Below are positions 33,035 through 37,595 of a stretch of DNA of 37,808 nt, one piece after another. The DNA is from Bacteroidales bacterium (GTDB lineage Bacteria; Bacteroidota; Bacteroidia; Bacteroidales; JAEINX01): the NCBI GenBank assembly GCA_016342645.1, contig JAEINX010000033.1, positions 1 through 37,808 of the forward strand. The letters are read 5' to 3'. The translations under genes and the position numbers were made by a program. Under the pieces are notes generated by a model. The model was given only the letters and a program-made list of their open reading frames with translations. It did no database searches and had not been told where the DNA came from. How positions within the stretch are numbered: the first letter of the stretch is position 1; the number at the start of each line of letters is the position of its first letter.

Positions 33035-33108
33035 TGAACCCGAAGGGATTCGAACCCCCAACCTCCTGATCCGTAGTCAGGTGCACTATCCAGTTATGCT
33101 ACGGGTCC
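33035..33108 (-). tRNA. tRNA-Arg (anticodon ACG)
   Basis: A 74-base gene. The acceptor stem GGACCCG/CGGGTTC carries one G-T pair, the anticodon stem is CCTGA/TCAGG with loop CTACGGA, and the anticodon ACG lies at 33074-33072. The T loop reads TTCGAAT. It should be A34-to-inosine edited to read CGN codons. The CCA end is not encoded (the discriminator A is followed by CAA). Confidence 0.95.
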
Positions 33109-34940: not shown

Positions 34941-34970
34941 TTGAATTTTATTAAAAATATCTTAATTTTG
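34941..34970 (+). promoter_or_regulatory. Full Bacteroidota promoter of the KamA-like gene
   Basis: TTG (34941-34943), 19 bases, TAATTTTG (34963-34970), then CAC. The transcript would start near 34977, which rules out the upstream TTG codon at 34941 as start and supports the ATG at 35034. Confidence 0.7.
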
Positions 34971-35033: not shown

Positions 35034-36404
35034 ATGATATTAAAAAAAGAAATATATTTAGAAAATCAAACAAATTATAAAGCATTTTCAATCAATAACA
35101 TAAAAGAAATTCCTCAAATACAAAAGCTTTCAGAGCAAGAATTATTTGAAATAGAAGTAGTTTCACAAGTACTGCCATTTAAAAGCAATTCATACGTTAT
35201 TAACGAATTAATAGATTGGGATAATATTCCAAATGATCCTTTATATATTCTTACTATTCCTCAAAAAGAAATGCTAATACCCAAGCATTTTGATAAAATT
35301 GCAAAGCTTTTAAAATCGGGAGCAGATAAAAAAACAATCACAAAGGCAGCAAACTCTATCAGGATGCAACTTAATCCTCATCCTGCCGGCCAACTTGATT
35401 TAAATGTGCCAAGTATTAATGGTGAACCCATTGATGGCATGCAACATAAATACAGAGAAACTGCATTATTTTTTCCAAGTCAGGGACAAACTTGCCATGC
35501 CTATTGTACTTTTTGTTTTCGATGGCCACAATTTGTTGGTTTGGAAGGTTTGAAATTTGCATCAAAACAGTTAGAGTTGCTACAGGAATATTTCAAAGTT
35601 TACCCTGAAACCACCGACATTCTTTTCACCGGCGGAGATCCCCTCATAATGAATGCAAACTTATTGAATAATTATATTGAACCATTATTAACAAATGTTG
35701 ATAGCCTTAAAAATATTAGGATTGGTTCAAAGGCACTTTCTTATTGGCCGTATAAATTTCTTACTGACCCTGACGCTAAGGAGTTGCTCAAACTTTTTGA
35801 AAAAGTTGTAAAAAAGGGTAAACATTTAGCTTTAATGGCTCATTTCAATCATCCTCGAGAATTGGAAACCAAAGCTGTTCAAGAAGCCATTCGTTTGATC
35901 CGTTCTACCGGTGCTGAAATTAGAACTCAATCTCCTATACTTAATCATATTAACGATAATTCAAATCTTTGGTCTGAAATGTGGCAAAAGCAAGTCTCAC
36001 TTGGCTGTATTCCCTACTACATGTTTGTTGCCAGAGAAACAGGTGCAGCACATTATTTTAACCTCAGTCTTGAAGATATTTTTAGAATTTTCAAAGAAGC
36101 ATATTCAAATGTAAGTGGAATTTGTCGAACTGTTCGAGGGCCAAGTATGTCGGCTGCTCCGGGCAAAGTTCAAGTTGTTGGAATTACGGAAATTAAGGGT
36201 GAAAAAGTTTTTGTTCTTCAATTTATCCAAGGGCGTAATCCTGATTGGGTATTAAAACCTTTCTTTGCAAAATTCAATTCTCAGGCTACATGGCTCAACG
36301 ATCTTAAACCTGCATTCGGAGAAACGAGTTTCTTTTGGCAGGAAGAATATGAGAAAATGACTGGCCAAAATGCTGATTCTTTTGAGTATAAGGATCTCGG
36401 ATAA
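35034..36404 (+). CDS. KamA-family (lysine 2,3-aminomutase-like) radical-SAM/PLP protein
   Basis: A 456-residue protein from the ATG at 35034. The frame is open further to a TTG at 34941, but that lies in the promoter. The radical-SAM cluster motif is Cys154-x3-Cys158-x2-Cys161 (CHAYCTFC). DILFTGGDPLIMN is the SAM/GGxP block, and the end has VRGPSMSAAPGKVQVVG, where Lys378 aligns with the PLP lysine of aminomutases. In lysine 2,3-aminomutase two aspartates hold the substrate side-chain amine. Here the first seems replaced by Arg334 (YMFVARETG) and the second by Ala (SAAPGK), so lysine is an unlikely substrate. The most likely function is a PLP-dependent 1,2-amino shift on another amino acid. 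The name KamA is by family only. Confidence 0.85.
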   Translation: MILKKEIYLENQTNYKAFSINNIKEIPQIQKLSEQELFEIEVVSQVLPFKSNSYVINELIDWDNIPNDPLYILTIPQKEMLIPKHFDKIAKLLKSGADKKTITKAANSIRMQLNPHPAGQLDLNVPSINGEPIDGMQHKYRETALFFPSQGQTCHAYCTFCFRWPQFVGLEGLKFASKQLELLQEYFKVYPETTDILFTGGDPLIMNANLLNNYIEPLLTNVDSLKNIRIGSKALSYWPYKFLTDPDAKELLKLFEKVVKKGKHLALMAHFNHPRELETKAVQEAIRLIRSTGAEIRTQSPILNHINDNSNLWSEMWQKQVSLGCIPYYMFVARETGAAHYFNLSLEDIFRIFKEAYSNVSGICRTVRGPSMSAAPGKVQVVGITEIKGEKVFVLQFIQGRNPDWVLKPFFAKFNSQATWLNDLKPAFGETSFFWQEEYEKMTGQNADSFEYKDLG

Positions 36405-36476: not shown

Positions 36477-37595
36477 ATGAATAAAAAACAAATCATTTTC
36501 CTTTTGTTAACAACAGTCTTCTTTTCTTCTTGCCATGTCGGACGATTTTTTTATTGGAATTTTGCCGATGTCAACGATTATAAAAAATTCCCAGCTTATG
36601 AAATCAATAAATCGGAAAAACCTTTTAAATTTTTTGAAGCAAAGAATTCTATTACTCTGAAAATACCCGAAAAGTTTGAAACAAAAAATAAGAAAATCTC
36701 ATTCGATAAATTTTTAATACAAAATAAAACCATTGCCTTTCTAATAATAAAAAACGATACAATTGTTTTTGAAAAATATTTTAAAGGGTACTCTAAAGAA
36801 TCAATAATGCCTTCATTTTCCGTATCAAAAGCTTTTGTTTCAGCTTTAACAGGAATTGCAATTGAGGATGGGTTTATTAAAAATACAAATCAAAAAGTGA
36901 GTGAATTTTTACCCAAGCTATCAAAAAACGGTTTTGATAAAGTGAGCGTTGAGAATCTTTTGAACATGCGTTCGGGAATTAAATTTAGTGAAGCCTATTT
37001 AAATCCTTTTGCCGAAGCAGGGAAATTTTATTACGGAAAAAACTTAAAAAGATATGTCAGGAAGCTTAAAGTATCGGAAAAACCCGGTGAAAAATACGAA
37101 TATCAAAGCGGAAACACACAGATTCTATCCGAGATAATTGAAAAAACTTCTGGAAAAAAACTTTCAGAGTATCTTGAAGAAAAAATATGGAAACCTATTG
37201 GTATGGAATATGATGCAAGCTGGAATTACGACAGTAGAAAATCAGGAACGATAAAAGCATTCTGTTGTCTAAATGCCAGAGCACGTGATTTTGCAAAACT
37301 TGGAAGATTGTATTTAAAAAACGGGAACTGGGAAGGAATGCAAATAATACCGGTTGAATGGGTGAAAAGAACAACCTCAATAATTAATGATTCAAAAGAT
37401 TCACAGAACTATTCTTATACATATAAATGGCGAGTGATGGAAAACGGATGCTTTTTTGCTAAAGGATTACTTGGCCAATATATTTATGTTGATCCGGTTA
37501 ACAATCTAATCTTCTTAAGATTTGGGACAAGTTATGCAAAAATTGACTGGGCTGATCTTTTTCAAAGTCTTACAAAGCAAATAGAATCAGAATAA
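36477..37595 (+). CDS. Serine hydrolase lipoprotein (beta-lactamase/class C-like)
   Basis: A 372-residue protein with a lipoprotein signal ending in FSSC (Cys19). The penicillin-binding fold of the class C beta-lactamase/DD-peptidase superfamily follows, with SxxK as Ser115-VS-Lys118 (PSFSVSKAF). The block VENLLNMRSGIKFSEAY, the second-Tyr block KYEYQSGNTQILSEII and FAKGLLGQYIYVDP (the KxG-like motif) complete it. It is more like esterase/DD-peptidase relatives (EstB, Pab87) than a true beta-lactamase, so the substrate is unknown. It probably sits on the periplasmic face of the envelope. It follows the KamA-like gene by 72 bases but with a short terminator and its own -7 box between them. Confidence 0.88.
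   Translation: MNKKQIIFLLLTTVFFSSCHVGRFFYWNFADVNDYKKFPAYEINKSEKPFKFFEAKNSITLKIPEKFETKNKKISFDKFLIQNKTIAFLIIKNDTIVFEKYFKGYSKESIMPSFSVSKAFVSALTGIAIEDGFIKNTNQKVSEFLPKLSKNGFDKVSVENLLNMRSGIKFSEAYLNPFAEAGKFYYGKNLKRYVRKLKVSEKPGEKYEYQSGNTQILSEIIEKTSGKKLSEYLEEKIWKPIGMEYDASWNYDSRKSGTIKAFCCLNARARDFAKLGRLYLKNGNWEGMQIIPVEWVKRTTSIINDSKDSQNYSYTYKWRVMENGCFFAKGLLGQYIYVDPVNNLIFLRFGTSYAKIDWADLFQSLTKQIESE

Follow-up and report, generated by a model that had tools for sequence, protein, structure and literature searches.

A KamA-like radical SAM/PLP enzyme encoded by a Bacteroidales bacterium is probably a glutamate 2,3-aminomutase, separate from the recognised enzyme of that name (eam), that makes beta-glutamate as an osmolyte. 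Its gene lies at 35034..36404 on the forward strand of the window, the whole 37,808-nucleotide stretch of DNA that was analysed, and encodes 456 amino acids from an ATG start; an alternative in-frame TTG start upstream, at 34941, would give 487. What is new is that the protein belongs to a widely distributed clade of its own with a distinct pocket; the predicted reaction itself is already known. The analysis establishes the family, the fold, the substitutions in the pocket, the distribution and, for archaea, the linkage to other genes. For this protein we infer the substrate, the product and the physiological role, and likewise the same use in the window's bacterium. A preliminary description had remarked on altered substrate-binding residues in this reading frame and had read them as a sign of a substrate other than lysine. 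That observation and its interpretation are in part confirmed and supported.

The protein has the features of the KamA-type superfamily, namely a CxxxCxxC motif, a PLP lysine and the lysine-aminomutase fold. The NCBIfam subfamily model TIGR00238 matches it at E 8e-37, scoring 126.9 bits against a curated cut-off of 199.2. It also falls below the cut-offs of the models for lysine 2,3-aminomutase (TIGR03820; 109.1 versus 525.4 bits), glutamate 2,3-aminomutase (TIGR04368, eam; 94.9 versus 650 bits) and arginine 2,3-aminomutase (TIGR04468; 88 versus 600 bits). The initial remark that no named group shows this combination of residues therefore holds insofar as every NCBIfam cut-off is missed, but the combination is no singleton and marks a widespread family. 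The Pfam Radical_SAM model reaches only E 0.002, and the sole solved relative recovered by sequence is the lysine 2,3-aminomutase 2A5H (phmmer, E 3.6e-20). An AlphaFold model built on an alignment of 25 family members has a mean pLDDT of 85.6, with values below 50 at residues 1-11, 159-162 and 448-456. This model matches the 2A5H fold with a Z score of 32.2 and 3.5 A over 331 residues at about 22% identity; the next entry has a Z score of 12.9.

The catalytic residues align with those of lysine 2,3-aminomutase, and the reading frame and residue numbering given in the preliminary description are correct. Cys154, Cys158 and Cys161 (35493..35516, forward strand, as for all residues here), the ligands expected for the [4Fe-4S] cluster, align with Cys125, Cys129 and Cys132 of 2A5H, and Arg163 (35520..35522) is the equivalent of Arg134, which presumably binds the substrate carboxylate. 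In that enzyme, the amine of the lysine substrate is held by Asp293 and Asp330. Arg334 (36033..36035) sits at the Asp293 position, where glutamate 2,3-aminomutase has Lys, because the phmmer alignment to 2A5H is free of gaps from residue 309 on, through the window's PYYMFVAR and the PYYIYQCD of 2A5H. This is where the preliminary description had placed it, and the predicted structure, compared at the level of the fold, matches lysine 2,3-aminomutase. It was mistaken about the second position and about the PLP loop, which it took to be Ala and to be shortened. With a clostridial AblA as a guide, SMSAAPGK of the window protein and DAPGGGGK of the lysine enzyme are equal in length, the loop glycines being replaced by alanines. 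Ser371 (36144..36146) therefore takes the place of Asp330, which is Asn in glutamate 2,3-aminomutase, and Lys378 (36165..36167), already proposed as the PLP lysine, is the equivalent of Lys337.

These residues were followed through 92 family rows, comprising the window protein, 77 of the best 80 of at least 591 relatives and 14 further loci; L016, L051, L083 and L088, in which the ORF caller took another frame, were left out. Across this set, which is dominated by the best matches, Arg334, Lys378, Arg163 and Gln299 are invariant (92/92), as are Cys154 and Cys161, and Cys158 is present in 91. Position 371 is Ser in 85 of these same rows, Val in five, Cys in one and Ile in one. Arg334 is also invariant in a 25-row alignment that includes L088. 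Among 14 distant KamA-type rows of the same order, the equivalents of Arg163 and Lys378 are kept in all, and position 334 is Asp in eight, Arg in three, His in two and Lys in one. As the preliminary description had suspected, a KamA-like enzyme in which Arg replaces the Asp on the substrate side therefore probably acts on an acidic amino acid; the 2A5H alignment, the model fold, the invariance within the family and the Lys/Asn pair of a recognised glutamate enzyme all support this.

That Lys/Asn pair, mentioned in the preliminary description, was seen at the 293 and 330 positions of L217, which exceeds the TIGR04368 cut-off (716 versus 650 bits). Two near misses to this model, L218 and L219, have Lys and Thr, and L220 and L221 are of the lysine type (Asp/Asp). 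Common to eam and the family are a cationic residue at the Asp293 position (Lys in L217-L219, Arg in the family) and the predicted reaction. At the Asp330 position stands a small polar residue, Asn in L217, Thr in L218 and L219, and Ser in 85 of the 92 family rows (77 of the 92 being from the best 80 of at least 591). L217 is only 22% identical to the window protein, and eam lies inside the lysine/arginine clade. Judged by cut-off and by clade, the window protein stands outside the eam family. None of 296 Bacteroidota genomes encodes a protein above the TIGR04368 cut-off, and one of 247 genomes does so in the phylum of G065.

Phylogenetic analysis places the family outside the lysine, arginine, glutamate and EpmB groups. 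In a tree of 61 rows, whose bootstrap was not fully settled, the 38 family rows fall on one side of a branch (98/91) that divides them from five other rows with Arg; at the 293 position of the 18 rows left, Asp occurs in 15, His in two and Lys in one. In a second tree, a branch with 100/100 support separates the family from the glutamate enzymes L217 and L218, which group with the arginine and lysine enzymes and well away from the family. The lysine-type L220 stands outside the eam group in this tree. Asp- and Lys-type rows occupy one side of it (100/99) and Arg-type rows the other, and as both trees are unrooted, the branches describe groupings and not the order in which Arg and Asp arose. 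One wrongly picked ORF (BactLAM_L160) was excluded from the trees. Going by these sequences, Lys in eam and Arg in the family look like separate solutions. Arginine 2,3-aminomutase (BlsG; TIGR04468) and EpmB have the KamA core in common with the family, but both keep Asp at position 293 and lie outside it. Two further groups outside the family also have Arg at 293: the PYY motif is missing from one (L025, L026), and the other is rhizobial (L126, L172); in the rhizobial L126, biotin-carboxylase-like genes flank the KamA-like gene. Another KamA-like group (L032, L037), with ORFs of about 525 amino acids, carries His and Asn at the pocket positions (QCHKEKG).

At least 591 stretches encoded a relative of the window protein. 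The best 80 of these, with best-segment identities of 57-64%, come from Bacteroidota, Balneolota, Ignavibacteriota, Calditrichota, Pseudomonadota, Thermodesulfobacteriota, Chloroflexota, WOR-3, Nitrososphaerota and others. More distant members (44-54%) are found on plasmids and megaplasmids of Mycetohabitans, Burkholderia, Nonomuraea, Streptomyces, Rhodococcus and Nocardia, and those that carry an annotation are named lysine 2,3-aminomutase (several), 4Fe-4S protein or hypothetical. The copy on the Nocardia plasmid (L124, 8001-9184) is matched in two tblastn pieces annotated as two hypothetical proteins and is probably broken. No paper assigning this family, or naming a gene for beta-glutamate in ammonia-oxidising archaea, was found in the open-access literature searched.

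Beta-glutamate is stored by cells against salt stress. Genome G114, which we presume to be that of Nitrosopumilus maritimus SCM1, holds a single KamA-type match (at E 1e-8 or better to the family protein), and this match is a family member. It is 58% identical to the window protein and carries Arg and Ser at the pocket positions (VVRDTG, GPSMSATPGK). Its gene lies between a second glutamine synthetase gene and a divergent gene of the MscS type. In one study, beta-glutamic acid is the most abundant identified metabolite of N. maritimus, at 730 mM (PMC8269262). The simplest way of joining these facts is that the family enzyme would make the beta-glutamate of this archaeon.

This arrangement recurs in related archaea. 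In all 23 thaumarchaeal loci among the best 80 of at least 591, the enzyme gene has an MscS-type gene no more than 2 kb away, and in 21 of these 23 the latter is divergent at a distance of 39-183 bp. The MscS domain was confirmed with Pfam in L059 and L095, the latter from Nitrosotenuis and of a different MscS type. Eight further archaeal stretches include a repeat of L095 (L187) and four more with an MscS-type gene; L189, L190 and L194 have none. Archaeal synteny of this kind is partly a matter of shared ancestry.

The family is present in 128 of 200 Nitrosopumilaceae genomes and absent from 72. A second glutamine synthetase, told apart from the canonical enzyme by a score cut of the analyst's own (at least 540 bits versus about 505 or less), occurs in 82 of the 200: 81 of the 128 with the family, 47 of which thus lack the synthetase, and one of the 72 without it (G260). 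The co-occurrence gives 6e-21 in Fisher's test, a value inflated by relatedness, and in 66 of the 81 genomes the synthetase lies within 1 kb of the family gene. The second synthetase (for example L059 7402-8844 and, on the reverse strand, L223 6867-8309) reads ASAMH for GSGMH in at least nine of ten copies, and at least 11 of 12 canonical enzymes have the Gly. The GSGMH loop presumably touches the amino acid substrate. From its sequence, the second enzyme may be guessed to be a candidate beta-glutamine synthetase; it passes the ordinary NCBIfam GlnA model (514 versus 429 bits), and for this reason the role is put as a guess. The guess is encouraged by a report that a glutamine synthetase of Methanohalophilus makes beta-glutamine from beta-glutamate (PMC1224877). 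In G098, the second synthetase gene (L227 7101-8543, reverse strand) is far from the family gene and, by eye, near amt/glnK-like genes, a setting that would suit ordinary nitrogen assimilation.

Bacterial neighbourhoods, including that of the window, lend the osmolyte reading little support. Among the best 80 of at least 591, the stretch fetched contains an MscS-type gene for just three of the 57 non-thaumarchaeal loci and an exchanger-type gene for three, too few for the neighbourhood to serve as proof of an osmotic role. Two loci from Pseudomonadota (L051, L055) each encode an MscS gene of a different type and two Na+/H+ exchangers. Na+ riboswitches are reported upstream of ablA and eam (PMC9337991). 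A salt-linked riboswitch before the family gene was rejected, as Rfam riboswitches were found neither in 23 bacterial loci nor in the window. In the window, the enzyme gene has as neighbours genes for a DUF418 membrane protein and a serine hydrolase, which are uninformative on osmotic stress. The hydrolase, of the beta-lactamase fold (PF00144, Pfam E 4e-32; 36477..37595, forward strand), has a lipoprotein-like start and begins 76 bp downstream of the enzyme gene, with which it is possibly co-transcribed; the pairing is repeated in L010, from the same taxonomic order, with the homologue 59 bp downstream. A tRNA gene (Rfam RF00005) occupies 33035-33108 on the reverse strand, with the galactokinase-like gene to one side of it and the DUF418 gene to the other.

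Actinomycete members, which are nested in the family, have Glu333 and often Val371, and their genes adjoin NRPS, carrier-protein or AMP-binding genes, a setting that suits a beta-amino-acid building block. In Streptomyces sp. NBC_01431 (L121, 2060-9275), the family gene starts 107 bp past an NRPS gene and encodes Glu333 and Val371 in place of Ala/Val and Ser. Plasmid pDK3 of Rhodococcus sp. DK180 (L122, 3035-17299) carries genes for a carrier protein, an AMP-binding protein, the family enzyme, a cupin and a luciferase-like monooxygenase, as well as SidA-type hydroxylase, class I tRNA-ligase-like and saccharopine-dehydrogenase-like genes; we take this cluster to resemble hydrazine-forming natural product pathways. 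An actinomycete radical SAM enzyme, IdnL4, is required for incednine biosynthesis, which proceeds via beta-glutamate; genetic evidence links IdnL4 to the formation of this compound, and its activity was not observed in vitro, according to the same study (PMC11284099). IdnL4 is likened to the family by description (radical SAM, beta-glutamate, actinomycete clusters).

In the predicted reaction, the [4Fe-4S] cluster on Cys154, Cys158 and Cys161 would cleave SAM to give a 5'-deoxyadenosyl radical. Glutamate would be held as an imine on PLP, itself resting on Lys378, with Arg163 gripping the alpha-carboxylate and Arg334 the side-chain carboxylate. The radical would then move the amino group from C2 to C3, yielding beta-glutamate, which would be kept as a compatible solute and not used in protein. 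In the actinomycetes the product probably feeds peptide or polyketide assembly, and in many Nitrosopumilaceae some of it may be converted to beta-glutamine by the linked second synthetase through amidation.

Lysine and arginine as substrates are disfavoured by the pocket residues and the clade. It is barely credible that, as public annotation has it, the protein is a lysine 2,3-aminomutase whose pocket has been rearranged but still yields beta-lysine. Several plasmid records bear that name and the best solved relative is 2A5H, with which the family shares the fold, the Cys motif, the PLP lysine and the carboxylate-binding Arg, but both amine-holding aspartates are replaced (Asp293/Asp330 becoming Arg334/Ser371), one of them by a cation. 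The TIGR03820 score falls far below its cut-off (109 versus 525 bits), the clade is separate, and ablB, the beta-lysine acetyltransferase gene, is absent from all 88 loci scanned.

It is unlikely on balance that the enzyme is a 2,3-aminomutase whose substrate, bound by Arg334 through its side chain, is an acidic or polar amino acid other than glutamate (2-aminoadipate, glutamine, or an acid that is modified or carrier-bound). Arg at the 293 position is common to relatives outside the family (the rhizobial L126 and L172, and L025-L027), so Arg alone does not fix glutamate as the substrate, and the actinomycete members, with their altered pocket, sit beside NRPS, carrier-protein and AMP-binding genes. 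Against this, the recognised glutamate enzyme L217 has the same kind of substitutions, and beta-glutamate is the only such compound reported to accumulate massively in a carrier of the gene (PMC8269262). It is very unlikely that the same radical start leads to another outcome (deamination, epimerisation, or a step of cofactor or peptide modification) and that archaeal beta-glutamate arises by another route, for example from hydroxyglutaryl-CoA. In its favour, one report proposes another beta-glutamate route for methanogens (PMC1224877), and a class I aminotransferase gene, which the osmolyte role does not explain, lies near the enzyme gene in six of 91 loci from several phyla, its domain checked in two. 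The PLP lysine, the Arg for the substrate carboxylate and the full lysine-aminomutase fold are nevertheless kept, and the genome presumed to be that of N. maritimus holds just the one KamA-type match.

More broadly, and with the case for and against evenly balanced, the family may be the enzyme, so far unrecognised, that synthesises beta-glutamate in marine ammonia-oxidising archaea and many bacteria. It would have evolved separately from eam, with an Arg/Ser pocket, and been exchanged between bacteria and archaea; in the archaea an MscS channel and a second glutamine synthetase (for beta-glutamine) would belong to the same module, and the family would be the source of much of the beta-glutamate whose abundance is reported to be greater in deeper seawater. 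If this is true, a gene labelled lysine 2,3-aminomutase would be a marker of beta-glutamate production in very abundant marine archaea and several bacterial phyla. It would also offer a genetic handle on the most abundant identified metabolite of N. maritimus (PMC8269262). The KamA superfamily would then contain a second pocket of the glutamate type, separate from the first, and the family would point to beta-amino-acid gene clusters in actinomycetes.
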